Positions 15,444 to 39,989 of a stretch of 44,021 nt of DNA are shown here, piece after piece. A program made the position numbers and the translations under genes. Positions within the stretch are counted from its first letter, which is position 1, and each line of letters begins with the position of its first letter. The stretch comes from a virus: the IMG/VR virus record IMGVR_UViG_3300032085_000952, positions 1-44,021 of that record. One strand, 5' to 3'. The notes beneath the pieces were generated by a model, which saw only the letters and a program-made list of their open reading frames with translations, did not search any database and was not told the DNA's origin.

Positions 15444-16595
15444 TTAATACAGATTGTTTATAACTTGACAAACTTTTTCTATATCTTTTATATCCATGTC
15501 GTGGTGATTTGGCACATACATTCCGTTAGAATCTACTAAACAAGAGTTTTTATGACCAACTTTGCCAAATAATTTTTGCCAAACTGGTTGCATACCAATG
15601 CTCCCAGCTATGAGAGGTCTACATTCAATATTGTTGTCATTAAGAGATTCTGCAAGCTTTTCTCTATCTCTAACAATTATTGGATAGCCCATGTTTGATA
15701 CGAGATTTTGGCACGAAGAAGGCTGTGGTTTCCAGATTGTGTCTTTGATTAGTTCGTCATAAATCAAGAAATTTTCATGACGTTTACTTGCAATATTATC
15801 TATCTTATCGACCTGTCTCAGGCCAATAAATGCTTGCAAATCTGTAGACCTTAAGTTAAATCCAGCAAAGTAAAATTTATAAAGAGCATTGAACTCGTCT
15901 ACATTATACTGGTTTCTATACTTTTTCTTAGAATCTTCAGATATGTCTCTATCCCACCCATGACTACGAATCATGCGAAGAATTTCTGCAAGATCATCAT
16001 CATCGGTGCAAATCATACCGCCTTCGATGGTAGATATGTGATGTCCAAAATAAAATGAGAACGAACTCATGTCGCCAAAAGTTCCTAGCTTCTTGCCATG
16101 CACTTCTGATCCAAGACTTTCGCAAGTGTCTTCTATTAGCAGAACAGAGTATTTGTCACAAAGGGCTTTGACTTCTTGTATATTGCAGTCGAACCCTAGC
16201 ACATGTACCAATATAAGGGCGGCAGGATTTTCAGTTTGAAATATATTCTCAAGATGACCGAGATCCAGTCCTAGATTTTGCATATTGCAGTCACAAAGTA
16301 TAGGCTGAAGCCCGAACTGTATGATAGGAAATACGGTAGTAGACCAAGAGACTTGAGGAGCTACCACTTTATTGTTTTTCATTTTCCCCGATTGAGCTAA
16401 GGCAGAAAAAGCTAGTAGATTTGCCGAAGATCCAGAGTTACAAAAGACTGAGTGCTTCACTCCTAGTTTTGCAGAGAATTTCTCTTCAAACTCTACAGTT
16501 AGCTTGTTCTTCGTTAAGATAGGTTTTGTTTTCAACCACTCAATCAAAGAGTCAATATCTGCATCATCTATGATTTCTGCACAAAGTTTTATCAT
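15444..16595 (-). CDS. DegT/DnrJ-fold PLP enzyme with His replacing the catalytic Lys (ColD/RfbH-like sugar 3-dehydratase)
   Basis: 383 residues of the DegT/DnrJ/EryC1/StrS fold: SVFCNSGSSANLLAF near residue 55 (phosphate loop), LLIEDTCESLGSE (PLP Asp), then GDMSSFSFYFGHHISTIEGG. In aminotransferases the position after FSFxxx is the Schiff-base Lys; here it is His (FGHHIST). That substitution is known from ColD and RfbH/E1, which are PLP/PMP-dependent 3-dehydratases in deoxysugar pathways. I therefore infer sugar 3-deoxygenation rather than transamination. The start overlaps the stop of the GT10 gene (ATGA). It likely helps build a deoxysugar for phage or host glycans. Confidence 0.82.
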   Translation of the reverse strand: MIKLCAEIIDDADIDSLIEWLKTKPILTKNKLTVEFEEKFSAKLGVKHSVFCNSGSSANLLAFSALAQSGKMKNNKVVAPQVSWSTTVFPIIQFGLQPILCDCNMQNLGLDLGHLENIFQTENPAALILVHVLGFDCNIQEVKALCDKYSVLLIEDTCESLGSEVHGKKLGTFGDMSSFSFYFGHHISTIEGGMICTDDDDLAEILRMIRSHGWDRDISEDSKKKYRNQYNVDEFNALYKFYFAGFNLRSTDLQAFIGLRQVDKIDNIASKRHENFLIYDELIKDTIWKPQPSSCQNLVSNMGYPIIVRDREKLAESLNDNNIECRPLIAGSIGMQPVWQKLFGKVGHKNSCLVDSNGMYVPNHHDMDIKDIEKVCQVINNLY

Positions 16596-17524
16596 GCTTC
16601 TACAATTCCTTTAAGCTGTTCCAGCAAAAATTCTTGATTTACACATTCCGGTATTTTATTGTCAGGGAAACAGGGTAATGTTTGTATTTTTTTATATTCA
16701 ATAGTATTATAACAAAGCTCAAGAACTTTTTCATGTAGATGTTCTAAATTTTCAAAGTTTCTGACATGTAGAAATGCTTCTTCGTTGAACTCTTCTGCAA
16801 CATCTTTGCATCCCCAATAAATAGGTATTGATCCTACATACTTGGGATGAATTATTTTTTCTGTGATCCAGCCATCTGATTCTCCGTTATCAAAACAAAG
16901 ATTAAACTTGAAATCAGATAGATATTCCAGCTTGTGTTTTTCATCTCCGCCAATCGACGGCATATTAGTAAATGCTCTCCCTCTACTCTCTACAAGAAGT
17001 CCATTATCAATACCAAAGTTTATAAATTTAGGATACGCTTCTTTTCTGTAGCCCATATCATTGTTAGTTAATATAGAACAGAATTTACTCTTTTGTGAAA
17101 CATTAACTTGATTCGTTAACTTTTTTGCTGACAAGAGAAACGCTTGATTTCTGCCCTCTACATAGCTTTCTTGCTGATCGCCAAACCAGTTTACATACAT
17201 AGCCCACAGAGGTATTCTGACATTTCTATCATCTTCAAATTTACAAGACGAAATAGAAAAGTCACACTTGCTATAGTCGGGATCTCCTGTTCTGTCTATG
17301 GATTCTACTAACCAATGAACTATCTTGGAGCTGGTAAATCCTGATGTAAACCTTTCGGGAGGTGGAGCTTGATGACTAGCCGGTGAAACCTGACAGATTA
17401 CAATGTCTGGATTACTATCTGTTATTGTAACGTCGTACTCTTTTCTAAGAGTGTTTGTTATAATGTTGTCGTACTCAAAGAAGCCGCCCCACATATTATA
17501 AAATTTTAAAGATATGTTTTTCAT
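16592..17524 (-). CDS. GT10-like fucosyltransferase
   Basis: 310 residues. The C-terminal half carries the family signature: FKFNLCFDNGESDGWITEKI followed by GSIPIYWGCKDV (about residues 205-250), i.e. the acceptor/GDP-sugar region of alpha-1,3-fucosyltransferase (CAZy GT10). The N-terminal half is shorter and less conserved, with the segment VHWLVESIDR. It would move fucose or a related deoxyhexose to a glycan. It is coupled to the 3-dehydratase-like gene, so the two may make and transfer one deoxysugar. No transmembrane segment; probably cytoplasmic. Confidence 0.82.
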   Translation of the reverse strand: MKNISLKFYNMWGGFFEYDNIITNTLRKEYDVTITDSNPDIVICQVSPASHQAPPPERFTSGFTSSKIVHWLVESIDRTGDPDYSKCDFSISSCKFEDDRNVRIPLWAMYVNWFGDQQESYVEGRNQAFLLSAKKLTNQVNVSQKSKFCSILTNNDMGYRKEAYPKFINFGIDNGLLVESRGRAFTNMPSIGGDEKHKLEYLSDFKFNLCFDNGESDGWITEKIIHPKYVGSIPIYWGCKDVAEEFNEEAFLHVRNFENLEHLHEKVLELCYNTIEYKKIQTLPCFPDNKIPECVNQEFLLEQLKGIVEA

Positions 17525-17560: not shown

Positions 17561-17896
17561 CTACTTATCGAGTTGTACATCTATTTTCTTTAAATTTTCT
17601 GAGAATTGTTTTAGCGTGCTTACTGTTGTTTCTCTGGCAACTCTTTCTGCGGTCTCAGCGGCATAAGCTTGGACTTCTGTTGGGAGTTCATTAGAAAGCG
17701 CCTGAAGAAACGTCTCAAACTTCATGGCTGTATCAGTTTGTATTGTGTGACTATAAGAAGCACCTTCCTCTAAAATGTCTAATCTTTTGTCTAAATATCG
17801 GTTGTTATATTCAGCTCTAGCGCCTATAAAAATAACGGCAGCTAGAAAGATGCCTCTAAAAATACTTGACTGGTTCACCTTCATGTTCATTCTCAT
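17561..17896 (-). CDS. membrane-anchored coiled-coil protein
   Basis: Up to 111 residues, with an N-terminal hydrophobic anchor (IFRGIFLAAVIFIGA, about 12-26) and then an all-helical charged region with heptad-like spacing (YLDKRLDILEEG ... AETAERVARETTVSTLKQF). The start is uncertain: ATGs at 17896, 17890 and 17884 all overlap the end of phoH. No family recognised. A type II topology (N-in) or cleaved signal is possible. Confidence 0.6.
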   Translation of the reverse strand: MRMNMKVNQSSIFRGIFLAAVIFIGARAEYNNRYLDKRLDILEEGASYSHTIQTDTAMKFETFLQALSNELPTEVQAYAAETAERVARETTVSTLKQFSENLKKIDVQLDK

Positions 17897-18566
17897 CTTC
17901 TTCTTTATTGAGTGTCATTAATATTTTGGACACGATACCACTACGAACAATATCGCTATAATCCAGTTTGCAAACACCAACACCAGAAACTTCGGAAAGT
18001 TTATCCATACAAGTCTTAAGACCACCTTGATGTTTACCTAAGTCGGACTGTCTTAGATCTCCGTTTATCACAGCCTTAGAATCTTTTCCAATTCTAGTAA
18101 TAAACATTTTGATTTGTTCAAACGTAGCGTTCTGCGCTTCGTCTAAGATCATAAAACAATTATGAAAGTTTCGCCCTCTCATATATTCCAGTGGGCATAA
18201 CTCAATAATATCTCTACTCCTATAAGTTTCTACCGTATTCTTTGTGAGATATTGGTTCATCTCTTCTAGAATAGGTATTAAATAAGGATTAATTTTTTCT
18301 ACTAATGTGCCGGGCAAGTGACCCAAACCACGACCCGACTCTACAACAGGTCGAGTAATAATAATTTTGTCTACTTTCTTTTCGATCAAGTATTCACACG
18401 CCATTCCGACAGAGACGCTAGTCTTTCCCGACCCAGCAGGCCCAGAGCAGAAAGTAACATCAGACCTGTTTATACTCTGCATGTAAGTTTCTTGATTGCG
18501 TGTTTTAGGCCGTAATATTTTTCTTCTCTGTCTTGTTGTCTTTGGTTTTTTTGCTTGTCTTGCCAT
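17856..18566 (-). CDS. phoH: PhoH-like P-loop ATPase
   Basis: 236 residues. Walker A FCSGPAGSGKTSVSVGMA (about 35-52); the PhoH-specific TRPVVESGRGLGHLPG (about 73-88); PLEYMRGRNFHNCFMILDEA with Walker B ILDEAQNAT; INGDLRQSDL as sensor region. A lysine/arginine-rich N-terminus KTTRQRRKI precedes the domain. PhoH proteins are extremely common in marine phages and link to RNA metabolism or phosphate stress; the phage role remains unclear. One-base spacing to the small membrane gene upstream. Confidence 0.94.
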   Translation of the reverse strand: MARQAKKPKTTRQRRKILRPKTRNQETYMQSINRSDVTFCSGPAGSGKTSVSVGMACEYLIEKKVDKIIITRPVVESGRGLGHLPGTLVEKINPYLIPILEEMNQYLTKNTVETYRSRDIIELCPLEYMRGRNFHNCFMILDEAQNATFEQIKMFITRIGKDSKAVINGDLRQSDLGKHQGGLKTCMDKLSEVSGVGVCKLDYSDIVRSGIVSKILMTLNKEEDENEHEGEPVKYF

Positions 18567-18862
18567 TAATTATTCTCTACTGTTATAGTTTTAATTGCTG
18601 AATCCTGACACATTGGACATATCGGCTGAGAGCCGGGCTTATGTATACCAAGTTGGTGATGGGTCATAAGGATTGCTTGAATTATCTGTGATTCTCTAAG
18701 CCTTGAATGTAAGGGTAATTCTCTGAGTTCTTTTTCTATGGGAATTTTAAGTTCTATTGCTGGCTCCTTATTCATTATATGTTTGAACATATAGAAAGAG
18801 CCCGCTAAATTCAGTAAAGATAGTGAAAAAAGTACATAAACTGCGTTCTTAAAAAATTTCAT
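18566..18862 (-). CDS. small membrane-anchored protein with CxxC
   Basis: 98 residues. N-terminal anchor NAVYVLFSLSLLNLAGSFYM (about 6-25), then a polar helical region with His-rich MTHHQLGIH and a CPMC pair (PICPMCQDS, about 82-90) near the C-terminus. The single Cys-x-x-Cys could be half of a metal site or a redox pair outside the cytoplasmic membrane. No named family. It overlaps both neighbours by one base (phoH and the first DUF1501 gene). Confidence 0.65.
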   Translation of the reverse strand: MKFFKNAVYVLFSLSLLNLAGSFYMFKHIMNKEPAIELKIPIEKELRELPLHSRLRESQIIQAILMTHHQLGIHKPGSQPICPMCQDSAIKTITVENN

Positions 18863-20073
18863 TAGAATAATTCTTTTATAATCTTACCAGAGTTGGCAAT
18901 CTTCATAGGTCTGCCGTTATTACTGGTAAATGTGGTTGTTAGTGAAATGTCAAGAGCTTTGCATACTGAAGCCATCACATCTTGAGAAGTGTAAGGTTCT
19001 GTATCAACGCGCGTGCCATCTGAATTAGTAGCACCGACAGCAATACCTCCATTCATTCCACCTCCACCAACGACAACGCTCCAACTTCGTGCCCAATGGT
19101 CACGACCTGCGTTCTGGTTGATTCGAGGAGTTCTACTAAACTCTCCCATCCAAATAATTACTGTGTCTTGTAGAAGTTCTCTCTGTTCTAGATCTTCAAA
19201 TAGCGCACTCATACCTTGATCTAACATAGGAAGTTTGTTATCTCTTAATGTAGCATGAATATTCTGATGATTGTCCCATCCGCCAAGATTAACCTCTATA
19301 AACGGCACACCAGCTTCTACTAGCCGTCTAGCCATCAGACAACCTTTACCAAAGTTGTTGTTGCCGTATCTTTCTTTTACATTTTCTGGTTCGCCTGCAA
19401 CTTTCAAAGCATCCATCTGTGAGCTTGTCAGTACATTAAATGCTTCCTTTAGAACTGATTGATGTTCTTTTGCTAGTGAGCCTCGTCTTTGGTTTATAAA
19501 ATTACTTTCAATTGCATCCAAAGCGTAAGCTCTCTGATAAAATCTCTGATCTACTTTTACATCTAGATTTCTAATTCTACCATCGCTATTCACGCTAAAT
19601 GGAGCATATTTAGAACCAAGAAAACCGGCGCCTATACTTCCTCCACCCACAGAAATAAACTTGGGTATAGAAAGATCTGGTCTTGGCGACTGATGTGAGA
19701 TTACTGAACCATAACTAGGATGATCTATGCTTGGGTTCGGAACATATCCAGTATGCATATAATAGCGACCACGCATATGGTCAGCTTCACGAGTACTCAT
19801 ACTTCTAATAATAGCAGCGTTATGCATCTGTTTTGCCATGAGAGGCATATGTTCACATATTTGCACATCTCCAGAGGTATTGATGGGACGGAAAGGGCCT
19901 CCTGTAGGCGCTCCGGGTTTTAAATCCCAGATGTCCATAGTTGAAGGGCCACCGCCCATCCATAGAAGAATGGCGGACTTCCCTTTCTTTTTAAGTTCAT
20001 CTTCGTTAGCTTTAACAGTTTCCGCTAATGATAGCGCACTAAAAACCGATGTTAGAAAGGTACGTCTTTGCAT
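18862..20073 (-). CDS. DUF1501 protein, copy 1 (Tat-exported, alkaline-phosphatase/sulfatase-like fold)
   Basis: 403 residues. The Tat signal MQRRTFLTSVFSALSLAETV is followed by the DUF1501 core: LLWMGGGPSTMDIWDLKPGA (about 35-54), IIRSMSTREADHMRGRYY (about 90-107, His-rich), HPSYGSVISHQ, FIEVNLGGWDNHQNIH, and the C-terminal GEFSRTPRINQNAGRDHW. This is a full-length match to a family abundant in Planctomycetes and other PVC bacteria and related to the alkaline phosphatase superfamily; biochemical activity is not established. Export via Tat is predicted from the twin arginine. Upstream TTAAGAGGTGAAGAC is a good ribosome site. It is unusual in a phage (see findings). Confidence 0.88.
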   Translation of the reverse strand: MQRRTFLTSVFSALSLAETVKANEDELKKKGKSAILLWMGGGPSTMDIWDLKPGAPTGGPFRPINTSGDVQICEHMPLMAKQMHNAAIIRSMSTREADHMRGRYYMHTGYVPNPSIDHPSYGSVISHQSPRPDLSIPKFISVGGGSIGAGFLGSKYAPFSVNSDGRIRNLDVKVDQRFYQRAYALDAIESNFINQRRGSLAKEHQSVLKEAFNVLTSSQMDALKVAGEPENVKERYGNNNFGKGCLMARRLVEAGVPFIEVNLGGWDNHQNIHATLRDNKLPMLDQGMSALFEDLEQRELLQDTVIIWMGEFSRTPRINQNAGRDHWARSWSVVVGGGGMNGGIAVGATNSDGTRVDTEPYTSQDVMASVCKALDISLTTTFTSNNGRPMKIANSGKIIKELF

Positions 20074-20084
20074 GTCTTCACCTC

Positions 20085-20273
20085 TTAAATTATAGCATGT
20101 TGATCTGAATCAGAGTTTTGAAACTTAGCATAATTTCTATGCCAATCATATTGATGATCTTGGTACGGTGTAGGCTCATCATTATTATCATTGTAGGCAT
20201 AACCGAAATCTTGCTTGAGTGAAGCAGAGCTTCCGCTACCTATGCCCATTGTTAATAAGTCTCCCATAAACAT
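20085..20273 (-). CDS. small polar protein of unknown function
   Basis: 62 residues, MFMGDLLTMGIGSGSSASLK, then an Asn/Asp/Tyr/His-rich tail (YNDNNDEPTPYQDHQYDWHR). Low complexity and very hydrophilic, with no helix-forming pattern; the glycine/serine start resembles short virion-associated or linker peptides. The ATG follows AAGGA nine bases upstream, and that site is itself inside the 10-codon frame at 20278-20310. Eleven bases separate it from the DUF1501 gene downstream. Confidence 0.5.
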   Translation of the reverse strand: MFMGDLLTMGIGSGSSASLKQDFGYAYNDNNDEPTPYQDHQYDWHRNYAKFQNSDSDQHAII

Positions 20274-20277
20274 AATA

Positions 20278-20310
20278 TTATTTCCTTGTTAAAGCTGGTA
20301 AATATTTCAT
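20278..20310 (-). CDS. possible 10-codon leader peptide
   Basis: MKYLPALTRK followed by TAA, with a strong AAAGGAG ribosome site six bases before its ATG. The stop lies four bases before the next ATG (20273). Its translation would cover the AAGGA site of the 62-aa gene and could couple or tune it. Alternatively it is the tail of a longer decayed frame, since the same frame remains open upstream. Tentative. Confidence 0.25.
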   Translation of the reverse strand: MKYLPALTRK

Positions 20311-20333
20311 TTTTAACTCCTTTAGTAAAGCTT

Positions 20334-20409
20334 GAGCGCCCGATAAATTCCTTTTTAGCGAACGCCCAAACTGATTCCGATGGCGCCTCTCGCCGTTGGG
20401 TCGAGATCG
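20334..20409. other. GC-rich islet in an AT-rich genome
   Basis: By hand count about 57% GC over these 76 bases, compared with clearly AT-rich surroundings. On the minus strand it contains a small hairpin (TCTCG, nine-base loop, CGAGA), a GGCGCC palindrome and a pair of similar 8-mers (GGGCGTTC and GGGCGCTC). It spans the end of the overlapping frame at 20355-20486. It may be a remnant from another genome or a structured leader for the genes downstream. Confidence 0.5.
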
Positions 20410-20486
20410 AAATTAACTAATGCATTTGGGGCATTTACATACCTCTGCCTTACAAATGCAGTTTGTTTCTGGACACGGACACTCAT
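20355..20486 (-). pseudogene. alternative 43-codon frame, possible gene-tail remnant
   Basis: An ATG-started frame overlapping the Cys-rich gene in another phase and continuing through the GC-rich islet. It encodes MSVRVQKQTA at its start and ends in NFDLDPTARGAIGISLGVR before TAA. The C-terminal part looks more like real protein than random translation (balanced composition, no rare runs) and resembles the last strands of a beta-rich or structural protein. There is no convincing ribosome site. I read it as the surviving 3' end of a lost gene, with low certainty. Confidence 0.3.
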
Positions 20487-20607
20487 CTACACAAATTTCA
20501 CAAATTGTTGGTTGGTCGCTATTAAACATCTCCTTTATCTCCTCTTTGTTAATTAAGCATAACGCTGCAACTATAATAATTGCTACTAGCGGAAGTTTGA
20601 TCTTCAT
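20413..20607 (-). CDS. membrane-anchored cysteine-rich (metallothionein-like) peptide
   Basis: 64 residues. One N-terminal hydrophobic segment (LPLVAIIIVAALCLI, about 5-19), a short spacer, and then nine cysteines in the last 30 residues in CxxC, CxC and CPC arrangements (CEICVDECPCPETNCICK, then CKCPKC). This density suggests metal binding outside the membrane, but no named metallothionein family matches. The lipobox is imperfect (AALC), so lipoprotein status is unlikely. An extended ribosome site GGGGGTGATC, nearly matching the 16S 3' end, precedes it. It lies between two DUF1501 genes. Confidence 0.65.
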   Translation of the reverse strand: MKIKLPLVAIIIVAALCLINKEEIKEMFNSDQPTICEICVDECPCPETNCICKAEVCKCPKCIS

Positions 20608-20625
20608 ATGACGATCACCCCCTCT

Positions 20626-21924
20626 CTAAATAATAAGGTCTTGTCGAACTGTACCACCGTCCACAATTTCTATAGGACGATCTCCCGGAGCCATAAGCTC
20701 CTTATCGGAAACGATTCCGATTCTATTGTATATTGTTGCTGCCCAATCTTCTACTGTCATTGGGTTATCTTCTGGTTCACTCGCTGTAGCATTAGAGCTA
20801 CCATAAACCATTCCGTTTTTAATACCGCCTCCAGCCATAACTACACTGAAAACCTTTGGCCAGTGGTCACGACCAGCGGTAGCATTAATCTTTGGTGTAC
20901 GACCAAACTCGGAAGCCAAACAAACCAGCGTGGAGTCAAGCATACCTCTATCACTAAGATCTTCAATAAGGGCCGCAAGTCCTTGATCTAGTGCTGGCAC
21001 TTGTCCACGAATACCATTTTCTATATTGTCGTGCATATCCCATCCACCATAGGTGAGTGTGACGAAGCGAGTTCCAGCTTCTACTAAACGGCGAGCTAAT
21101 AACATGCGAGCGCCAGCAGTATTTCTGCCATACTTGTCTCGCATCGCATCGCTTTCTTTGTTAATATCAAAAGCATCTCTGGCTTTTTCACTGCTAATCA
21201 AACTATAAGCACGATCATAAAAGCTATCTACGGCATCCAGAGAGTCTGACTTTTCTTTGGTAGCAAAGTAATCGTTGACTGCACTAAGCATTTTTCTTCT
21301 TGTTCCAAACCTATTATCATTCACACTGTCGGGCAGTCTGAGATCTCGAACCTGAAATCCATCACTAGCAGGGTCTGAACCTAAGCTGAAACCTGAGAAT
21401 GAGCTACTTAAATATCCAGTACCTGCATATTCATTAGGTTGGTTTGGGATGCAGACGTATGGAGGAAGGTTTTGACGAGGCCCAAACTCATGTGCCACCA
21501 CTGAACCCATTGATGGGTATTGAAGGGCTGGGCTAGGTCTATAGCCAGTAAACATATTATGTGTGCCTCGTTCATGAGCTGCTTCTCCATGTGTCATACT
21601 GCGAATAATCGTCATCTTGTCTGTAACTTTGGACGTTTTGACCATCATCTCATTTAATCTAGTTCCGGGAACTACGGTTTCAATGCTAGACATTGGCCCC
21701 CTGTATTCAAGAGGAGCAAAAGGTTTAGGATCAAATGTCTCTTGATGAGCTGAACCTCCCGGCAAATAGATATAAATAACAGACTTTGCTGGCCCCTCAA
21801 TGCTTTCATAAAACTTCTGGTCAGCTTGAGCTTGCTCCATGCGGAAATAATCCGATAGACTCAAACCCAAGCCACCCAAAAAACCAACTTGCAGAAAAGA
21901 TCTGCGATTACTTTTGCAATTCAT
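20626..21924 (-). CDS. DUF1501 protein, copy 2 (Tat-exported)
   Basis: About 432 residues. Tat signal NRRSFLQVGFLGGLGLSLSD is of the form typical of planctomycetal DUF1501 proteins. Core motifs: YIYLPGGSAHQETFDPKPF, TIIRSMTHGEAAHERGTHNM, LQYPSMGSVVAHEFG, VTLTYGGWDMHDNIENG and ASEFGRTPKINATAGRDHWP; closing TVEDWAATIYNRIGI, as in the family. The frame is open back to 22128, but that extension overlaps the neighbour; the ATG at 21924 has AAAGGA six bases before and directly precedes the Tat motif. Activity unknown; the fold is related to sulfatases and alkaline phosphatases. Overall sequence differs clearly from copies 1 and 3. Confidence 0.88.
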   Translation of the reverse strand: MNCKSNRRSFLQVGFLGGLGLSLSDYFRMEQAQADQKFYESIEGPAKSVIYIYLPGGSAHQETFDPKPFAPLEYRGPMSSIETVVPGTRLNEMMVKTSKVTDKMTIIRSMTHGEAAHERGTHNMFTGYRPSPALQYPSMGSVVAHEFGPRQNLPPYVCIPNQPNEYAGTGYLSSSFSGFSLGSDPASDGFQVRDLRLPDSVNDNRFGTRRKMLSAVNDYFATKEKSDSLDAVDSFYDRAYSLISSEKARDAFDINKESDAMRDKYGRNTAGARMLLARRLVEAGTRFVTLTYGGWDMHDNIENGIRGQVPALDQGLAALIEDLSDRGMLDSTLVCLASEFGRTPKINATAGRDHWPKVFSVVMAGGGIKNGMVYGSSNATASEPEDNPMTVEDWAATIYNRIGIVSDKELMAPGDRPIEIVDGGTVRQDLII

Positions 21925-21934
21925 AAAATTTCCT

Positions 21935-22846
21935 TTACCACATTCTGCAAGACCAGTACCGAGCTTTCCATTTTGGGCCCGGAGCTGTATCACATTTGTG
22001 TCTTGCTCTAAAACTTCTTCTTCTTTCAGGGTTATCCCTTTTAATTTCCATATTAGGATCGCCAAATCTAACAATAACAACTTTACCAGATCCATTCTTA
22101 GTATAAACTGCAAATTTCTTTGGCCCATCAGGGGTTCTAAAAGGCTTATTTAAAGTGACTTTTCTACCTTGATATTCTGCCGCTTTGGACTTTCTTGGAT
22201 GTCCTTTTGGAAGAAGGTCATTATCCTGCGTGTATCCAGAATTAGAAGGTTTACCAGTTCTGAGTAATGTCAAAAAGGCATTTACTCTAGCCATAGCCCA
22301 TCCATCTCTAGACATTTTTGGCGCATGACTTGTTGAGTAGGCTCCAGCCCCTCTACGATACACAGCTTTAAGCATACCAAGAGTTGCTTTTGATCCTTTG
22401 CCTTTAGCATTATGCTCTTTCACTTTCTTAGACAGTCTTTCGGTGGTCTTTTTACTAAAAGTGATTTTACCACTTGGGTTCTTTGCACTATCAGGCTTGT
22501 TTCTTTTTGAGCCTCTCTTCTGATCTTTTTTTGGTGCGGGAGTTCTACGGGGATCTCTAGGGCCCGGTTTGTCAGACTGAGCTTTCTTAAGCTCCTCTTG
22601 ACTAGGACGACCTTCTTTTTCAGTGCGAGCAGGACGGTAGCTATCTCCTTCTCTCTGCTTTTTCCTCCTAATATTTTCCCAAAGTCCGGGCTTAGCTTGT
22701 GAAACATCCCATTCTTCAGTATCTTCACCAAAATCTACATACTCAGCTTCAGCAGGAATATAAAAGTTTTCCTCTGTAAGATCTTCTGTATATCCAGTTT
22801 CATTTAAGTACTCATTAAATGCGCTTGCGTAATCTTCTTTTTTCAT
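21935..22846 (-). CDS. DUF5824-like basic phage protein with conserved Cys-containing C-terminus
   Basis: 303 residues. An acidic N-terminus (about 1-50), then a very basic Pro/Lys/Arg-rich linker (about 60-140), followed by LKAVYRRGAGAYSTSHAPKM and WAMARVNAFLTLLRTG (about 158-200), which resembles DUF5824. The last 45 residues (FGDPNMEIKRDNPERRRSF, then RARHKCDTAPG and RYWSCRMW) match a C-terminal module I recall from many tailed phages, often fused to different partners. Function is not established; head-assembly links have been suggested for such modules. Sandwiched between two DUF1501 genes with TAATG coupling. Confidence 0.6.
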   Translation of the reverse strand: MKKEDYASAFNEYLNETGYTEDLTEENFYIPAEAEYVDFGEDTEEWDVSQAKPGLWENIRRKKQREGDSYRPARTEKEGRPSQEELKKAQSDKPGPRDPRRTPAPKKDQKRGSKRNKPDSAKNPSGKITFSKKTTERLSKKVKEHNAKGKGSKATLGMLKAVYRRGAGAYSTSHAPKMSRDGWAMARVNAFLTLLRTGKPSNSGYTQDNDLLPKGHPRKSKAAEYQGRKVTLNKPFRTPDGPKKFAVYTKNGSGKVVIVRFGDPNMEIKRDNPERRRSFRARHKCDTAPGPKWKARYWSCRMW

Positions 22847-24102
22847 TATAATATTACCTTTCCTTCACCTTCTAGCAGGTATCTTGGTCTGCCAGAGTTA
22901 TCAACTCTCTGTGTGCCTTTATCTATTCCAAAATGATCAAATAGGGTTGCCTGTAAATCCAAAGGCCCAACAGGTCTTTCTGTAGGACTGTAAGATCTAT
23001 CAGCCTCTCCGATGGTTCTTCCTGCTGCATACTCTCCACCGAACATAAACATCGGCGTGATTGATGGCCAGTGGTCACGACCGGCATTTGCATTAATTTT
23101 AGTTCTTCCAAATTCGCCAGTTACTACCAATAATACTTTATCACCTAAACCTCTATCGGACACATCCTGTATAAAGCCTGCAATAGCTTTATCGACAGGA
23201 GGCACTCTTGTCTTTAGGGCATTTGATACATTGCTATGCATGTCCCATCCGCCATAATGAAGCGTAACAAATCTTGTTCCGTATTCTACAAGACGACGAG
23301 CAAGAAGAAGTTGTTCACCAATATCTTTTGCTTTAGTTGACCCATAGAGAGCTTTTGTTTTTTCATTCTCTTTTTCTACTGCAAATGCGTCTTTTGCAGA
23401 TCCTAATATTACATCGTATGCTTGCCCCTTGTAAAAGTCTACTGAGTTGGCGCTTCTGCTTGCGACTGCGGCGGCATCAAGTCCTTTGAGCAGGTCTTTT
23501 CTTGTAGAGAATCTATCAAGTTCGACTCTTGGGGTAAGGTTGTCTTTATTGGATGGATCGAAAGGTTTATATGCTCCACCGAGCCAAGCACCTTCATCAC
23601 CTTCGATTTTACCTTGCTTAACATATGTTGGTACTCCATTTTCTTGGTTGTTAGCTCCATAACATGCAGATACAATAGATCCGAATGAGGGGTACTTTGC
23701 CATAGAAGTGGTGGTTCTTTCTGGATTATACTGTCCGGTCATCATAAAATGAGTCCCTTGTCTATGAGAGGAATCTCTGTGACTAAAGGAATTTACCACA
23801 TTCATTTTGCCGGTATGTTTAGCTAGTTCTGTCCAGTCAGCACCTAAATTTATGTTCGTTTTAACATCATAAATAGAACCGTTTACTGCTTGCCATTCGG
23901 TAGGCACAGTGTCTGTAGGAGCGTGAAATGTTTCAAACTGTGTTGGCCCTCCTCCAAGCCATAACCAAACAACTGCCTTATCTTCATATGCATCAAAACC
24001 TTCTTGAGAAAACGCTTTGTCGGAAAGTCCGATAGAACTCATAGCTGCGCTGATGCCACCTACCCTTAAAAAGTTTCTTCGATTGAAAATAAAGTCTAAC
24101 AT
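22846..24102 (-). CDS. DUF1501 protein, copy 3 (Tat-exported)
   Basis: 418 residues. Tat signal FNRRNFLRVGGISAAMSSIG, a probable cleavage after AFSQE, then WLWLGGGPTQFETFHAPTDT, VNSFSHRDSSHRQGTHFMMTG, KYPSFGSIVSACYG, VTLHYGGWDMHSNVS and GEFGRTKINANAGRDHWP. All family landmarks are present, including the terminal GRDHW and a closing DLQATLFDHFGID. It is as divergent from copies 1 and 2 as they are from each other, so recent tandem duplication is unlikely. Ten bases separate it from the tail-tube-like gene upstream. Confidence 0.88.
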   Translation of the reverse strand: MLDFIFNRRNFLRVGGISAAMSSIGLSDKAFSQEGFDAYEDKAVVWLWLGGGPTQFETFHAPTDTVPTEWQAVNGSIYDVKTNINLGADWTELAKHTGKMNVVNSFSHRDSSHRQGTHFMMTGQYNPERTTTSMAKYPSFGSIVSACYGANNQENGVPTYVKQGKIEGDEGAWLGGAYKPFDPSNKDNLTPRVELDRFSTRKDLLKGLDAAAVASRSANSVDFYKGQAYDVILGSAKDAFAVEKENEKTKALYGSTKAKDIGEQLLLARRLVEYGTRFVTLHYGGWDMHSNVSNALKTRVPPVDKAIAGFIQDVSDRGLGDKVLLVVTGEFGRTKINANAGRDHWPSITPMFMFGGEYAAGRTIGEADRSYSPTERPVGPLDLQATLFDHFGIDKGTQRVDNSGRPRYLLEGEGKVIL

Positions 24103-24112: not shown

Positions 24113-25138
24113 TTAATAAGTTGTTGATTGTGTTTTTGTGACTATTGATCCATTTGTGTATGGCATGTAGTCATTGTTGTCATTTGTATAAGAGAAAGAC
24201 ATTTCTACATTGCCTCCTCCTGTATCTCCACCCGAAAATCCAACGCCTGTACAATAATTCTTTGACCCCAAATCAAAAATTATATTATCAAATTTCAGGA
24301 CTATTTGCCGATCAGGAGTTGGAAATGTGCCCATAAAAATATTGTTGTTGTCTGATATTAGTATATCTTGTTGGACTGACTTTCTAGCTATTGCGCTGAT
24401 TTCACAAGTAACTTCAACAGGCGTTTCTACGTACTTATATTTGTTTTGCTCGCTTGGATTGGTGCCCTGATTTGAACCTCTCCAAAAACCCGTATCGGCA
24501 AGTTCAGAGTAGCTGACCGAAAGACTAATTCCTATTGATTGTATAACCCTAACTTTTATATTATCATCTACTGTTAGTATGGCTGCGTCAACCTCAGTTG
24601 GAAATATACTGTTTTCTGTGTCGAAGTTTTGCTTTCTCATAAGAGTTCCAGACTCTCCAAGAGCCGGAATAGAACCGGCAGACTGCTTCGTCAGGTTATT
24701 GGTAACGAGGGTAATACTTTCAGTAAATATACCATCAACAGAGAAGTTATACGAAATCTCTGTAACCAAACAATATTCAAACTTTACTGAATCGACAGAA
24801 CCACTTATGGTCGTATCATCACCATAAGTCAAACCAATTTCATATTCTTTTAATCCAGTCCAGCCAGCTATACCTAGATTGGAATTTTTTAGAAGATAAG
24901 AGTCTTCATAATTGCCAGTTCCTATAGTATAGAAAGGCGTATCACCAGATCTTAGATGTCGTTCTATTGTTATTGTCACTTCTGGCTTGTTGTATCTATC
25001 TCCAAAAGCCTGAGATCTTCCGGTATCAAGTATAGCTTCAGCGTCAGCGCTATAGTCAACGCCAACGCTTTGGACGTTCTTTAAGTACGTGCCATCAACG
25101 AAGACCGCCTGACACGCATAAAAAACTCTGTTACCCAT
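24113..25138 (-). CDS. tail-tube-like virion protein (tentative)
   Basis: 341 residues, rich in beta-strand, Gly, Ser, Thr and Asn. Early segments (AVFVDGTYLKNVQSVGVDYS, then VTITIERHLRSGDTPFYTIG) resemble the start of phage tail-tube proteins, which describe a sequence of strand pairs and a loop that interlocks in the tube. Long stretches of ITLVTNNL and EVTCEISAIARKS follow. No enzyme motif. The call rests on composition and overall pattern; a minor structural protein is an alternative. It is the only such gene in this block and lies next to three exported DUF1501 proteins. Confidence 0.45.
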   Translation of the reverse strand: MGNRVFYACQAVFVDGTYLKNVQSVGVDYSADAEAILDTGRSQAFGDRYNKPEVTITIERHLRSGDTPFYTIGTGNYEDSYLLKNSNLGIAGWTGLKEYEIGLTYGDDTTISGSVDSVKFEYCLVTEISYNFSVDGIFTESITLVTNNLTKQSAGSIPALGESGTLMRKQNFDTENSIFPTEVDAAILTVDDNIKVRVIQSIGISLSVSYSELADTGFWRGSNQGTNPSEQNKYKYVETPVEVTCEISAIARKSVQQDILISDNNNIFMGTFPTPDRQIVLKFDNIIFDLGSKNYCTGVGFSGGDTGGGNVEMSFSYTNDNNDYMPYTNGSIVTKTQSTTY

Positions 25139-25152: not shown

Positions 25153-26160
25153 TTAAAAGTCGTCAACTAAATTTCCTACAGAATACTCAGTGACTCTAGT
25201 CTCGAAAAAGTTCTTGCATTTTTCCAGATCAATGATCTCGCTCATCCAAGGAAATGGGTTCTGTGCATTTCCATAAGGTGATGGTAAATTTAAATTGGTT
25301 AATCTTCTGTCAGCAATAAACTGAACATAATCAATAAACATATCTGCGTTTAATCCTAAGATACCATTTGGTAGAACATCTCTAGCATATGCTAACTCTA
25401 GCTCCATAGCTGTATCAATATGCTCGATGGTTTCTTTTTCCATTGCTTTTGTCCAGATCTTAGGATTGTCTTCTCTCAATCTATTAATAAGAGTTGTCCC
25501 AAAGTTGATGTGGATACTCTCATCACGAAGTGTGTATTGAATTTGCTCTCCAATTCCCGGCAGTTTGTTTTGCCTATTAAATGAAAGGAGCATAGCAAAG
25601 CCAGAGAAGAAGAAAATCCCTTCACAGATAACATAATAAGTAATAATATTACGAAGGAATTCCCTTTTCCCCTCCAGCGTATTTATATTAAAATCAGGGC
25701 GATTGATGTCAGTTGTAATGTTCATCAAGAACTCGTCTTTGGCCTTGATACTCGGAATTGAATTATATGCCTGATAAACTTCATCAATATCTAAGTTCAA
25801 AGAGTCACAAACATAAACCACAGTAAGGTTGTGGAGGCTTTCCTCATATGCTTGACGCAGAATATATTGGCGACATTCTGGATCTGTTACAAACTTGAAT
25901 ACACTGAGAAGCAAGTTATTGGCAACCAAAGATTCTGATCCAGCAAAGAACCCTAAGCATCTCTTCACAACTAATCTTTCATCTTCGGATAGAGAGTTAG
26001 ATTTCCACTGTTCAATGTCTTTTGCCATAGAGACCTCTGTAGGCATCCAATTGTTAGCGGCTCCGTCGATGAATAAATCCCATGCCCATTTGTTTGTATG
26101 CGGCAAGATTTGATTCACAGTGGCTACTTTATCTGATATAATTTCTTTGCTTTTTTTCAT
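25153..26160 (-). CDS. nrdB: ribonucleotide reductase small subunit, class Ic-like
   Basis: 335 residues of the R2 fold. Helix segments carrying the metal ligands are visible: GFFAGSESLVANNLLL (Glu in place of the usual Asp), RQAYEESLHNLTVVYVCDSL (Glu and His), YYVICEGIFFFSGF and TLRDESIHINFG. At the radical-tyrosine position of class Ia enzymes (four residues after the His) there is Val (HNLTV). The Asp-to-Glu change plus absence of the Tyr is the diagnostic pair for class Ic (Mn/Fe) R2. The end FETRVTEYSVGNLVDDF supplies the R1-binding tail. The ATG at 26160 overlaps the nrdA stop (TAATG); an upstream TTG is possible. Confidence 0.93.
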   Translation of the reverse strand: MKKSKEIISDKVATVNQILPHTNKWAWDLFIDGAANNWMPTEVSMAKDIEQWKSNSLSEDERLVVKRCLGFFAGSESLVANNLLLSVFKFVTDPECRQYILRQAYEESLHNLTVVYVCDSLNLDIDEVYQAYNSIPSIKAKDEFLMNITTDINRPDFNINTLEGKREFLRNIITYYVICEGIFFFSGFAMLLSFNRQNKLPGIGEQIQYTLRDESIHINFGTTLINRLREDNPKIWTKAMEKETIEHIDTAMELELAYARDVLPNGILGLNADMFIDYVQFIADRRLTNLNLPSPYGNAQNPFPWMSEIIDLEKCKNFFETRVTEYSVGNLVDDF

Positions 26161-28610
26161 TATTGACAACTCTCACATCCGGGATCTAAAATAGAACATG
26201 CCTTAATTTCTTCTGCTTGTGGCTCTTCGGTTGACTTAAAACTAACAGTTGATTTCTCAACGCGAGTGGCGGCTTTGCCTCTCAAGTAATATGTAGTTTT
26301 TAATCCGTTTTCCCAAGCACAAAAATATAAGTCATTCAAAAACTTAAGACTGTCATGTTTGTTGTAAAGATTAAGCGATTGTCCCATATCAATCCACTTC
26401 TGTCTTTCAGCCGCAGCCTTAATTAAAATTTCTGGTTCAATATCAAAAGCAGTAATAAACTCTCTCTGAATATCTTCATCCAGATCAACCGCCATAACGT
26501 CTCCGTCAGCAGTATTTAGAGCATCTACTAGCTCTTGACACCAAATACCCTTCTTCTTAGCCATTGCAACAAAATGTTCATTGACCATAGTAAACTCTCC
26601 ACTGAGTGTTGAGTACACATAAAGAACCGAGTAATCTGGCTCAATAGACTGCGAACAACCCTGAATATATGAGATGGTTGCGGTAGGAGCGATTGCCATG
26701 ACATTACTATTACGCATACCATGTTTTCTCACTAATTCCCTAACCTCATCCCATTCTTCTACAAAGTTCTCGAAGTCCTCTTTCTTATACACATTATCTG
26801 ACCTGTGAGTCTCTCTCTGATTCATTAAATCACAATAAGTATCTATAGGAAAATTACCTTTATCCCATTCGGAACCCTCAAAAGAGGGGTATGCGCCTTT
26901 TTCCTTAGCTAATAATGCTGACGTTTTGATCGCATGTAAAGAAATAAATTCTTGTATTTTCCCGCACAGTATGACTGCATCTTGAGAATTATACGGTATT
27001 CCTAGCTTGTGTAACACATCATGAGTACCCATAATACCAAGCCCTACAGGTCTGTGTTTCAGGTTTGACTTTTTGGCTTCTTTTGTAGGGTAGAAGTTTA
27101 GATTTACAACATTGTCTAAGCCTCTAACTGCCACCTCTACGGTTTTCTGTAGCTTTTTCCAATCAATAGTTCTAACTTTTAAGTGCGATGATAGATTGAT
27201 ACTGGCGAGATTACAGACTGCTGTTTCACCTACCTCGACAATTTCACCTTCTTCATAAACTGTAGGTTTGGTGTGCAGTAAAATCTCAGTACACAGATTA
27301 GAAGAATGGACTACACCCTCATGTTTATTAGAATATCTTATATTAGATGGGTCTTTAAAGGTGATCCAAGGATGTCCAGTTTCATAAAGCGCAGTAAGAA
27401 CTTTCTTCCAAAGGTCTTTAGCATTAATAGTTCTATAATTATTTATTTCTCCATTGTCTGCGGCTTTCTTATATTTTCTATAAACCTTAGTAAACTCTTT
27501 GCCGTAGGTATCGTGTAACTCTGGACATTCTGCTGGATCAAACAAATACCAATTTTGGTTTTTTGTGACAGCTACCATAAAGTCATCTGGAATCCATAAG
27601 GCAGTATTCATGTCGTGACAACGACGGCGATCATCTCCAGTATTTTTTCTAAGGTCTAAGAAGTCTTCAATGTCTAAATGCCAAGGTTCAATATAAGAAC
27701 ATCCAGCACCTTTTCTTTTTCCTCCTTGATTGACCGCCACTAATAAGTCATTGAATATTTTTAACCAAGGAACAAGGCCTGTAGACTTTCCATTTGTGCC
27801 TTTTATGTAGCCGCCTGTAGCTCTTACGCTAGACCAATCAACACCAAGCCCTCCAGCATATTTCGACAATCTAGACTGTCCATGTAACGTACCAAAGATG
27901 CCATCAATTGAATCTCCCACTGTACTCAAATAGCAAGAAGAAAGCTGAGACCGTTTTGTCCCACTGTTAAACAGTGTAGGAGTAGATGGAGAATATCTAA
28001 ACTCTGACATCATATTATATATTTCGAGAGCCTTCTCTTCTTTATTATCCCCCTCTGCAAGACATAGACCCATAGCTACTCGCATATAAAATGCTTGAGG
28101 GGTTTCCATTCTCTGTTCATTTAGGTGGATAAAATAGCGATCATAGAGGGTTTGGATGCCCAAGTATTTGAATAGTTTGTCCCTTGATGGAACCATATTC
28201 TCAGCTAGGTAATCAAGATCATAAGAAAGGAGTCTATCACTGAGCCTCTCTTCTTTTACTAACCTTTTGATGTTTTTCACAAAAGCTTTTTTGTACTGCT
28301 CTTCAAAATTTTCACTACCTACGTCTTCGCCAAACACCTCTTTATAAAGATTGTTAAGTAGCATCCTCGCAGCTACATAAGCATAGTTTGGTTCTTTTTC
28401 TATCTTAGAGCGAGCAGATAATATCAGCGCCTTGTTTATTTCTGATGTTGGTATCTTATTGTAGAGTTGCAAACTAGCATCAAGAACTACTTCGCTCACA
28501 GAAACATCTTCAAGTTCATTACAAGCCCTTTCAACGCACTCATTTATCTTGTCTAAACAAACATCTTCTAGTCTACCGTTGCGTTTTTTAATTTTTATAT
28601 CTTGGCTCAT
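26160..28610 (-). CDS. nrdA: ribonucleotide reductase large subunit, class I
   Basis: About 816 residues. An N-terminal ATP-cone (KIKKRNGRLEDVCLDKINEC ...) for allosteric control is followed by the barrel: FNSGTKRSQLSSCYL (catalytic Cys pair, first), VHSSNLCTEI (active-site Asn-x-Cys-x-Glu), VCNLASINLS (second Cys of the pair), MAIAPTATISYIQGC and GLKTTYYLRGKAATR. The C-terminal redox tail ends CESCQ. It reduces NDPs to dNDPs with NrdB. The frame opens at a TTG (28628) but ATG 28610 starts at the conserved cone. It is preceded by a structured RNA and promoter that may regulate it (28645-28813). Confidence 0.95.
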   Translation of the reverse strand: MSQDIKIKKRNGRLEDVCLDKINECVERACNELEDVSVSEVVLDASLQLYNKIPTSEINKALILSARSKIEKEPNYAYVAARMLLNNLYKEVFGEDVGSENFEEQYKKAFVKNIKRLVKEERLSDRLLSYDLDYLAENMVPSRDKLFKYLGIQTLYDRYFIHLNEQRMETPQAFYMRVAMGLCLAEGDNKEEKALEIYNMMSEFRYSPSTPTLFNSGTKRSQLSSCYLSTVGDSIDGIFGTLHGQSRLSKYAGGLGVDWSSVRATGGYIKGTNGKSTGLVPWLKIFNDLLVAVNQGGKRKGAGCSYIEPWHLDIEDFLDLRKNTGDDRRRCHDMNTALWIPDDFMVAVTKNQNWYLFDPAECPELHDTYGKEFTKVYRKYKKAADNGEINNYRTINAKDLWKKVLTALYETGHPWITFKDPSNIRYSNKHEGVVHSSNLCTEILLHTKPTVYEEGEIVEVGETAVCNLASINLSSHLKVRTIDWKKLQKTVEVAVRGLDNVVNLNFYPTKEAKKSNLKHRPVGLGIMGTHDVLHKLGIPYNSQDAVILCGKIQEFISLHAIKTSALLAKEKGAYPSFEGSEWDKGNFPIDTYCDLMNQRETHRSDNVYKKEDFENFVEEWDEVRELVRKHGMRNSNVMAIAPTATISYIQGCSQSIEPDYSVLYVYSTLSGEFTMVNEHFVAMAKKKGIWCQELVDALNTADGDVMAVDLDEDIQREFITAFDIEPEILIKAAAERQKWIDMGQSLNLYNKHDSLKFLNDLYFCAWENGLKTTYYLRGKAATRVEKSTVSFKSTEEPQAEEIKACSILDPGCESCQ

Positions 28611-28644
28611 AAGTCTCACTGGAATCAAAGGTTAGTGTAAGTGT

Positions 28645-30144: not shown

Positions 30145-30783
30145 CTATATATTACACAAATTGTCAAGTATTTTATATGATTTTATTCTGATTCCATAGA
30201 TATTTGATTTATAAAAAATATCATAATGATCTTGGCTTAGTATTGGAGAACAGCTAACAACAGGCATATCTATCTGGTCTTCTATTGTTTTGCAACATAT
30301 TATATTATCTACAATGTCATCTACCATTGTTCCTGTTCCAATAACTATCTCGGAAGAATTGTTGGATTTCAGGCAATAACACAAGTCCATCACAAATGAC
30401 CAGTCAGAAACCCTGTATTCTATTACAGGACGAAGAGAGATGTCATATTCACTACAAGCAGAAGCACAAGACTTGAAGTCTTTTCTTATACTAGCTAAAT
30501 TAGATGCTTCTAAATCATTTCTATTTATAACTAAGTCAATGCTTTTGGCTCCTCTTCTTTTTGCTAATATTATATCGTGTATTCTCACGTTTGTGTCGGA
30601 TATACCGTATGGGTAATCCACAATAGCAGAAAAGTTCAGATGCTCCTTTATTAGCGATTCATCAATTCTAGATAGTAGCCCTGACGGAGTGCAGATCGTA
30701 TCTACTTTGCTGTTTGCAGAATTAAATATACACTCCAGAACGGAGCTGTAATTAGCTTCGTTACACAAGACTTCTAATTTCAT
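30145..30783 (-). CDS. DeoC-like (deoxyribose-phosphate aldolase fold) protein lacking catalytic lysines
   Basis: 212 residues with a recognisable DeoC TIM-barrel pattern: VDTICTPSGLLS, VDYPYGISDTNVRIHDIILA, RRGAKSIDLVINRNDL (the Asp of the DeoC active site) and VIEYRVSDW. The lysines of DeoC are missing: the position of KTSTG reads IVIGTGT (Lys to Ile), LKVIIE reads LRPVIEY and the KPAGG-type strand reads PVVSCSP. A standard Schiff-base aldolase is therefore improbable. It may be a repurposed sugar-phosphate binder. It overlaps the sigma-factor stop (TAATG), in the 30-33 kb block. Confidence 0.7.
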   Translation of the reverse strand: MKLEVLCNEANYSSVLECIFNSANSKVDTICTPSGLLSRIDESLIKEHLNFSAIVDYPYGISDTNVRIHDIILAKRRGAKSIDLVINRNDLEASNLASIRKDFKSCASACSEYDISLRPVIEYRVSDWSFVMDLCYCLKSNNSSEIVIGTGTMVDDIVDNIICCKTIEDQIDMPVVSCSPILSQDHYDIFYKSNIYGIRIKSYKILDNLCNI

Positions 30784-31253
30784 TAGTCATTGTCCTCAAA
30801 TATCGCTAGTGCGCTGTTGACGGCTCTACGTGCAGTCTCTCTACTGTAACCGTTCTTCTCTCCAATCTCGACCATGGTCATTCTGTCGAGGTAGCGTTGC
30901 TTTAGAATCTTCTTCTGGTCTTCATTGAGGTCTGAGAGCAGGACTTCAATGTTTTCTTTTGGAGTGTGGCAGATGTCAAACGGTATGCCATTCTTCTCTC
31001 TTCTTCTAATTCTAAGCTGGTTCATCATCGCATAGTTGAGTTGTTGATACAGAAAGGTTGTAAATTTAACACCTCTAGTTTCATCAAAAGAGTTCAGGCA
31101 CTTCCACAATACTTCTAGCCTTAAAGATGAGATGTCATCTGGGTCAACACTTTTACAATATTTTGCGCAAACAGAATCCATAATTTTTTTGTAATCAATA
31201 TTTTCTAAAGCTTCGTTTAGATCTCTAGTCTTCAATTTAAGATACTTCTTCAT
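30783..31253 (-). CDS. sigma-70 family RNA polymerase sigma factor
   Basis: 156 residues. Region 2 (about 45-95): LWKCLNSFDETRGVKFTTFL, YQQLNYAMMNQLRIRRRE; region 4 (about 110-152): LNEDQKKILKQRYLDRMTM, then the HTH MVEIGEKNGYSRETARRAVN. There is no region 1 or 3, as in phage-encoded and ECF-like factors. It likely redirects host RNA polymerase to a phage gene class. The start ATG has AAGGAG at good spacing. Promoter target not determined; the promoters found in this window look sigma70-like. Confidence 0.9.
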   Translation of the reverse strand: MKKYLKLKTRDLNEALENIDYKKIMDSVCAKYCKSVDPDDISSLRLEVLWKCLNSFDETRGVKFTTFLYQQLNYAMMNQLRIRRREKNGIPFDICHTPKENIEVLLSDLNEDQKKILKQRYLDRMTMVEIGEKNGYSRETARRAVNSALAIFEDND

Positions 31254-31863: not shown

Positions 31864-31915
31864 TTTTTGTACTCCACGTTTACTGTTTGAACTTTAGTCT
31901 TATATATAATACACA

Positions 31916-32251
31916 TTATTCAAACTTAACAGCGCTAGGTCTTACAACCAAATCGCAGTTTTTTGATTCTTCCTTGAAGGAGTCATAATAAGTAAGGAAC
32001 GCTAAAAATTGATCTTCTCCACCACCATTGTCGGCAGAGCATTGTCTTTCAATCTCTTTTAGTATTTCCGTTTCATACTCTCCAGAATTGACTTTATATA
32101 ATAAACTAGCAAAAGCTGAGATGTCTTCTAGAGAGTTTCCCCATCCGCATTTAAAATATATATCATAAGTTTCCGGTTCTACGAATACAGTAAAATAAGA
32201 ACTGCTAGAAACAGAATCTTGTTGTGGTAAATCTGGATATTGATCTGACAT
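31916..32251 (-). CDS. unknown acidic phage protein
   Basis: About 111 residues from the ATG at 32251, which has GGAGAAAGG before it (an upstream TTG is less likely). Central segment YFTVFVEPETYDIYFKCGWG then SLEDISAFASLLYKVNSGEY; acidic overall. No family known. It and the next two genes upstream look like one cluster of related-size unknowns. Confidence 0.6.
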   Translation of the reverse strand: MSDQYPDLPQQDSVSSSSYFTVFVEPETYDIYFKCGWGNSLEDISAFASLLYKVNSGEYETEILKEIERQCSADNGGGEDQFLAFLTYYDSFKEESKNCDLVVRPSAVKFE

Positions 32252-39985: not shown

Positions 39986-39989
39986 AAAG

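Follow-up and report, generated by a model that had tools for sequence, protein, structure and literature searches.

A block of divergent DUF1501 genes with predicted export signals in uncultured tailed phages

Three DUF1501 genes in a phage record

The window analysed here, i.e. the whole stretch of 44,021 bases, is an IMG/VR virus record (IMGVR_UViG_3300032085_000952) classed as linear. It carries a block of three genes for DUF1501 proteins (Pfam family PF07394) within a unit that occupies positions 18566-24102 of the minus strand, between ribonucleotide reductase genes and PhoH. Copy A (22846-24102; 418 amino acids, aa) matches positions 2-386 of the 390-position profile with E 1.9e-67, copy B (20626-21924; 432 aa) positions 1-389 with E 1.8e-113 and copy C (18862-20073; 403 aa) positions 2-390 with E 1.2e-102; the bit scores, 228.6 for A, 380.1 for B and 344.5 for C, compare with a cut-off of 27. 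Searching the record independently in all six frames returned the same three DUF1501 genes only, with zero internal stops. The scan of copy B used a mechanical open reading frame (ORF) starting at 22128, inside the gene of a DUF5824-like protein; the true start is likely the ATG at 21924, immediately ahead of the signal sequence.

All three copies have an N-terminal twin-arginine translocation (Tat) signal, RRNFL in A, RRSFL in B and RRTFL in C, and the motifs RRxFL, GGWDxH, EFxRT and GRDHW are invariant among them. The near full-length profile matches and the identity of copy C to the other two (36% and 29%) bear out the initial annotation of this DNA, which had described three complete and divergent DUF1501 copies, each with a Tat signal and the GRDHW motif. 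In the wider set of distinct phage DUF1501 proteins described below, the twin arginine is present in 107 of 107 (in two of them after start correction); the Pfam TAT_signal profile, searched against the window copies, matched copy A alone (E 0.17). With their RRxFL-type motif and hydrophobic segment at the N terminus, the phage DUF1501 proteins are predicted to be Tat substrates and to be exported. No PHROG matched any window copy at E 0.01.

Stop/start overlaps at 22846, 18862 and 18566 join copy A to the DUF5824-like gene, copy C to the gene of a small membrane protein (mem98) and mem98 to PhoH; these overlaps fit a single transcription unit reaching into PhoH. In the window lineage the upstream boundary of the unit is formed by NrdB and NrdA (25153-28628, minus strand; PF00268 E 1.2e-78, PF02867 E 2.2e-183) and the downstream boundary by PhoH (17856-18566, minus strand; PF02562 E 3.6e-70). 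Phage-type genes elsewhere in the window encode UvsX, DnaB helicase, primase, an exonuclease and a split DNA polymerase. Flanks, overlaps and replication genes agree with the earlier description of DUF1501 genes lying between phage genes with phage-style coupling.

A scan with copy B found relatives at 66-100% identity on 45 IMG/VR viral contigs; in separate searches the best 80 of 582 bacterial and the best 80 of 479 viral relatives were fetched. Two to four DUF1501 genes were present in 41 of the 45 stretches and one gene in four; the usual order is A-B-(D)-C, D being a fourth type not found in the window, with the exception of A-C-B in L030. All 20 larger records tried (31-320 kb) carry DUF1501 genes (four genes in eight records, three in ten, two in two), with zero internal stops. 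Three contigs from three differently numbered metagenomes (L004, L005 and L006) have an identical arrangement, with copy B at 100%. We used UvsX as a query so that DUF1501 itself would not bias the sampling; this gave 73 loci, 35 of them with any DUF1501. Flanks were scored for L249-L314, the partial-match loci L315-L321 being left out; a flank counted as covered from 6 kb on the upstream side and from 8.5 kb on the downstream side, thresholds chosen from known arrangements. DUF1501 was found in 14 of the 14 loci with both flanks covered, about ten of which are distinct (L249/L252 are 100% and L304/L307/L308/L309 are 99.3-100% identical), and in a further five of five with the upstream flank alone; among loci with the downstream flank alone, seven of 14 were without DUF1501, which sits upstream in the window lineage. 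Since the contigs come from several metagenomes and the test with this backbone gene gave 14 of 14, a host fragment mis-assembled into a phage contig, a concern raised with the initial annotation, is ruled out. One very large viral record (L044, i.e. G014; 319,857 bases) has two DUF1501 genes ∼88 kb apart.

The phage set comprises 136 DUF1501 members including fragments; 126 are longer than 380 aa, and the 107 distinct full-length proteins among these form four tight ortholog clades on long connecting branches, A with 33 members, B with 36, C with 25 and D with 13. In relatives of the window phage, clade D genes are placed between B and C. The count of three copies given by the initial annotation thus holds for the window and understates the lineage, whose DUF1501 genes belong to four ortholog clades that differ in bacterial ancestry. 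Selection on the four clades is strongly purifying, with median ratios of non-synonymous to synonymous divergence (dN/dS) of 0.048, 0.037, 0.035 and 0.034 for A, B, C and D in a random part of the pairs at moderate synonymous divergence (10, 16, 9 and 9 pairs, respectively). These medians favour the earlier suggestion that conservation of the copies implies use.

Neighbours of the block vary by lineage, being nrdAB and PhoH, an exonuclease and DNA polymerase, or PAP2 and a glycosyltransferase; the DUF1501 genes remain grouped although the neighbouring genes change. Contigs L178 and L179 have A-B-C at ∼85% identity, while other genes are far less like those of the window lineage (UvsX 33% and DnaB 37% in L179, PhoH 36% in L178), so the block appears to have been transferred between phages. 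In a set of UvsX-related, mutually near-identical loci (L304, L305, L307-L309), A and D were seen.

Among the larger records, gene layout was checked in G002 (144,965 bases), where packaging and head genes were identified: those of the large terminase subunit (phrog_2, E 7.9e-23), a portal protein (E 9.1e-10), a protease for head maturation (E 3.3e-20) and a major head protein (E 5.3e-6). Its structural region extends over ∼20-62 kb on the opposite strand from the DUF1501 genes, which lie at 100-110 kb beside replication genes. This layout bears on the idea of a virion component, raised in the initial annotation, in which DUF1501 proteins would be displayed on the particle, and likewise on an action upon the envelope during lysis. 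In the window, a 341-aa protein encoded directly upstream of copy A (24113-25138, minus strand), with no match in Pfam or PHROG, belongs to the same cluster as a protein from the head-tail region of G002 (31826-32833); for this reason, a structural-type gene may have been duplicated beside the DUF1501 block in the window lineage. Yet the family was present in only 10 of the 45 loci of the copy B scan (37 of these loci extend 2.5 kb or more ahead of the first DUF1501 gene), and the G002 DUF1501 genes lie far from the structural region, among replication and nucleotide genes. Moreover, the invariant Tat signals should route folded proteins away from the cytoplasm, where heads assemble. A virion or lysis role therefore seems improbable.

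Single viral DUF1501 annotations already exist. The protein A0A6J5M742 (UniProt; uncultured Caudovirales phage) carries one, with 15% identity in a structure match, and MT837425 gave a weak tblastn match to copy B (35% over 30% of the query). A search of 50,697 cultured or deposited phage records returned one weak match for copy B and none for A, C and D. No description of such a DUF1501 phage cluster was found in the literature, most subscription papers and bioRxiv preprints lying outside the search; one paper that mentions DUF1501 and phages has only a weak match for a 61-aa Pseudomonas phage protein.

Bacterial ancestry and probable host

A phylogeny against bacterial DUF1501 proteins, which the initial annotation had proposed, nests each of the four clades within a bacterial subfamily of its own. 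In this quick tree of 187 rows (97 bacterial), with several long branches, the viral label needs eight changes, seven of which are forced by well-supported branches. Besides the tree, direct comparisons give different best host genes for each copy, so that A-D are not mutual duplicates and tandem duplication within the phage is ruled out. Because 15 phage C genes group outside a cluster of 12 phage C genes and two host genes, C may have been transferred more than once, in either direction. The B gene of a phage group with low guanine-plus-cytosine content (L200 to L217) was captured separately and groups as sister of a planctomycete gene. Clade A, the most divergent, is the only one of the four to carry His at position 65 (33 of 33 rows), where the family mostly has Asp. 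In the stretches covered, the members of the low guanine-plus-cytosine group (0.29-0.34; L200, L203, L207, L209-L213, L215-L217) show a B-type gene only.

Close relatives of the phage proteins occur in planctomycete metagenome-assembled genomes, in particular L066 (Planctomycetaceae) and L067 (Pirellulaceae), with no fewer than 112 and 90 DUF1501 genes, respectively. Phage B is 85.6% identical (370/432) to a gene of L067 over the whole length, with 78-94% per 50-residue window. Phage C is 79.2% identical (319/403) to gene L225 from the genome of L066; the first 50 residues agree at 32% and later windows at 62-96%, and over residues 11-403 identity is 80% in both genomes. Phage D matches a third host gene at 58-59%. 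The planctomycetal affinity named in the initial annotation is thereby supported and, given such identity to host proteins, B and C look like functional orthologs and not like derived inhibitors.

Host B heads a row of genes encoding, in order, the DUF1501 protein, a PPC-domain protein, a PSCyt2/PSD1 protein and a PSCyt1/WD40 protein. As these genes follow it, host B is regarded as a resident bacterial gene; for B, an origin of the host copies as prophage genes in the assembled genomes is ruled out, the L066 and L067 copies sitting in the bacterial row. The gene before host C encodes PSCyt2/PSD1 in both genomes (PSD1 E 1.6e-27 and 3.2e-30), and the gene after host D encodes PSCyt1/PSCyt2 in both (PSCyt2 E 1.2e-76 and 5.4e-74). 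Searching with the three neighbours of host B by tblastn gave 75, 68 and 56 positives among 80 bacterial loci and none among 121 phage stretches (overlapping sets, window included). A search for PSD1 (PF07587) was negative in 21 of 21 phage records and equally in 14 of 14 controls, which leaves the tblastn comparison as the informative one.

The DUF1501 module of the Planctomycetes-Verrucomicrobia-Chlamydiae (PVC) bacteria was reported to be preferential to compartmentalised PVC species (Kamneva 2012, as cited in PMC4960237 and PMC4452313); PMC4452313 describes it as lacking biochemical characterisation, and PMC5615132 suggests that PSCyt genes mirror glycoside hydrolases. The phage proteins share with this module the family, the Tat signal and the invariant residues, B and C being close orthologs of particular planctomycete genes. 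In contrast to the bacterial module, the phage carries several DUF1501 subfamilies side by side, lacks the PSCyt/PSD1/PPC neighbours of host B and adds small membrane proteins of its own.

Taken from gene similarity, the window lineage most likely consists of tailed phages infecting Pirellulaceae-like Planctomycetota. Phages of this phylum are little described: specific literature searches gave no paper, though predicted freshwater phages of Planctomycetota (PMC6802176) and one chronic phage of a deep-sea isolate (cited in PMC11361711) have been reported. As for the status of host-derived auxiliary genes, the sequence comparisons support a bacterial ancestry, and expression during infection or a metabolic effect would be hypothetical.

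The abundance of DUF1501 genes in the host-like genomes would make capture easy, and the block might be thought of as dispensable cargo, i.e. host genes captured by chance and kept as harmless. This explanation is largely refuted by the selection data (dN/dS 0.03-0.05) and the prevalence of 14 in 14, and it would also have to account for genes of separate ancestries gathered mostly in one order; we consider it highly implausible.

Fold, conserved residues and proposed role

AlphaFold2 models of copy B (predicted local distance difference test score, pLDDT, 88.6; predicted template modelling score, pTM, 0.86) and copy A (pLDDT 80.5, pTM 0.81) match NPP/ENPP, PafA and sulfatases with VIA Z scores up to 20.1; the matches shown have Z about 17-20 and root mean square deviation (rmsd) of 3.2-4.5 Å over 230-275 residues. 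The best Foldseek matches of B were sulfatases and LtaP (E 3e-6 to 8e-6), with low TM-scores (0.25-0.43) and high rmsd. The models support an alkaline-phosphatase/sulfatase-like fold for DUF1501. The best sequence-search match, 8etq (k-cTRP5), covered the N-terminal Tat segment only and was rejected as spurious.

In the alkaline-phosphatase superfamily, a Cys, Ser or Thr nucleophile stands nine residues before TG, and a D-H or D-N pair binds metal. DUF1501 appears to differ from the superfamily members of like fold (NPP/ENPP, PafA, S1 sulfatases) in three respects. The nucleophile slot holds an invariant His (107 of 107 phage rows and 45 of 45 mixed phage and bacterial rows; the loop is shorter in clade D), E-F aligns to the D-H/N pair, and an extra GRDHW loop is present. 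The alignments behind these assignments are weak (HMMER E 0.14-0.81; hhalign E 1.9e-5, probability 54%), and comparing profiles with those of host NPP-like proteins produced no alignment that could be used (probability 0.05%). Residues H117, D296, H298, R342, R352 and H354 (copy B numbering) are invariant in the same 45 and 107 rows, and D353 is conserved in all 107 phage rows. The nucleophile and part of the metal site of the superfamily thus appear to be replaced across the whole DUF1501 family, which makes the replacement a property of the family and not decay in the phage. Assignment of sulfatase or phosphatase activity from the fold is disfavoured for this reason: the fold is supported, and the catalytic residues look different.

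These observations bear on two points of the initial annotation. Loss of active-site residues in all copies, named there as grounds for abandoning the proposal, was not observed, as the invariant residues of DUF1501 itself are intact in 107 of 107 phage rows. Sulfatase, receptor-destroying and phosphate-scavenging activities find no support in the form given, the nucleophile and part of the metal site being apparently replaced (by the weak alignments above).

Related versions of these ideas deserve weighing. The phage proteins could be envelope-remodelling enzymes that alter host surface glycans or lipids by ester cleavage or transfer, thus blocking superinfection or destroying receptors. Both modelled copies have the appropriate fold, the window also contains sulfotransferase, fucosyltransferase, glycosyltransferase, DegT and PAP2 genes, and 14 of 74 distinct C genes have a PAP2 gene no more than 3 kb downstream. 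However, the invariant His at the nucleophile position and E-F in place of D-H/N leave ester cleavage unproven; B and C are so like resident host proteins that there is no reason to expect them to change the surface in a new way, and at least 90 such genes are present in the host-like genomes anyway. We regard remodelling as rather doubtful. Exported phosphatase- or sulfatase-like hydrolases could also feed phosphate or sulfur to nucleotide synthesis, in line with the matches to PafA alkaline phosphatase, NPP and sulfatases and with the adjoining nucleotide genes (PhoH, NrdAB). Against such scavenging, which we find unlikely, canonical catalytic residues seem absent family-wide, and the PhoH/Nrd neighbourhood varies, other relatives having an exonuclease and DNA polymerase there; PhoH is common in phages and is not diagnostic.

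The interpretation we prefer, tentatively and with a probability of about 0.4, is that the block is a core accessory part of this uncultured tailed-phage lineage, by which the phage stands in for particular host envelope DUF1501 proteins during infection. Judging from gene position, the proteins would be made in the early-middle phase and exported folded by the host Tat system. They would then replace particular host DUF1501 proteins and assemble with host PSCyt/PSD1 proteins; the phage would supply the small partner and leave the PSCyt2-containing protein (with PSD1 and/or PSCyt1) to the host. The benefit might be to keep or retune a process of the envelope during the shutdown of host expression; this process could be one that couples electron transfer to the handling of polysaccharides or esters. 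The small proteins encoded beside the DUF1501 genes, membrane-bound or secreted, may serve as phage-specific adaptors, and the divergence of copy A suggests an added phage-specific role.

A parallel is offered by cyanophages, which encode PsbA without the other components of photosystem II. Like PsbA, the DUF1501 proteins would represent a host-derived, strongly conserved subunit of a membrane system, kept with nucleotide-metabolism genes while the rest of the complex is left to the host. Unlike the PsbA case, the block takes three or four members of one family.

Several points weigh against stand-in for host proteins. Copy A is without a close host ortholog: its six best matches in the two host-like genomes are at 35-37%, and among 119 genomes from the family to which the L067 genome belongs, 25 have a match at 40-44% (E ≤ 1e-80), where scoring was limited to 15 candidates in each genome. 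L219, which is among the best host matches of A, is followed by a gene of PDZ/S41 peptidase type and not PSCyt. The His at position 65 of A (33/33), together with this lack of a close ortholog, fits a new role better than substitution. Among the stretches covered, B and C were found without A or D in L188, L192-L199, L201, L202, L204-L206, L208 and L214 (L194-L197 and others of this group end close to C); since one phage group shows B and C and another B alone, not every phage group needs the full set. What process would be supplied is a guess, as DUF1501 has no established function (PMC4452313). Finally, expression timing is read from gene position alone, the physical partnership of DUF1501 with PSCyt/PSD1 is itself read from gene order, and the host is assigned by gene similarity, not by spacers or culture.

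A variant that would accommodate the divergence of clade A is conceivable, though we hold it with considerable doubt: several host DUF1501 members may have been recruited separately, one per host PSCyt/PSD1 cytochrome assembly, each assembly being run via phage subunits, with clade A as a phage-evolved redirector.

DUF1501 and PSCyt/PSD1 are large uncharacterised families of Planctomycetota. The few DUF1501 genes kept by the phage under strong selection would show which of them matter to the infected cell, and the phage offers Tat-bearing versions free of the usual gene neighbours for testing. The block could become a marker for phages of Planctomycetota, and regular carriage of several exported proteins of a host-envelope family points to an unstudied way of running the envelope of the infected cell.

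Small neighbours of the block and other genes of the window

Between copies A and B, the DUF5824-like protein (21935-22846, minus strand; 303 aa; PF19141 E 3.3e-6, phrog_7595 E 4.7e-14) overlaps the stop of copy A. Copies B and C are separated by CysMem64 (20413-20607, minus strand), a Cys-rich membrane peptide of 64 aa with an N-terminal hydrophobic segment and ten Cys (a family of 14, nine of them distinct, was aligned), and by a 62-aa ORF (20085-20273, minus strand) whose coding status is less sure; its family of five ORFs is confined to the closest relatives. A DUF5824-like protein and a Cys-rich membrane peptide were the separators named in the initial annotation, to which the 62-aa ORF is added here. 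Downstream of copy C lies mem98 (18566-18862, minus strand), a membrane-anchored protein of 98 aa with a conserved tail of the THHxxGxHxPGxQxMCPxC type (24 members, 19 distinct ones aligned). It has no Pfam match, and a search of three host-like genomes for a host source, run without a positive control, gave no match.

These small genes recur beside C. Of 74 distinct C genes, 42 are followed by a mem98 gene at a distance of up to 3 kb. In the 4.5 kb ahead of C, a DUF5824 member was found for 24 of 49 distinct C genes, CysMem64 for 17 of 49 and the secreted Pro-rich protein F11 for 17 of 49. Such recurrence of small membrane or secreted neighbours is in keeping with the possible exported system proposed earlier.

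Elsewhere in the window, glycan-type genes at 33145-39007 encode glycosyltransferases, an 812-aa radical SAM/SPASM protein and a sulfotransferase. A FucT-like fucosyltransferase and a DegT aminotransferase are encoded at 15444-17524, an NAD-dependent epimerase at 42399-43343 and a PAP2-type membrane phosphatase at 40530-41270. A sigma-70-like factor at 30783-31253 (PF04545 E 4.3e-10) may set the expression class of some window genes. The phage record also has a transfer-messenger RNA (tmRNA) gene at 39989-40330 with the tag VEENFALAA. The DNA polymerase (phrog_405) at 383-4421 is encoded by two separate genes with an exonuclease-like gene between them; in relatives this arrangement is PolA1-F31-PolA2.

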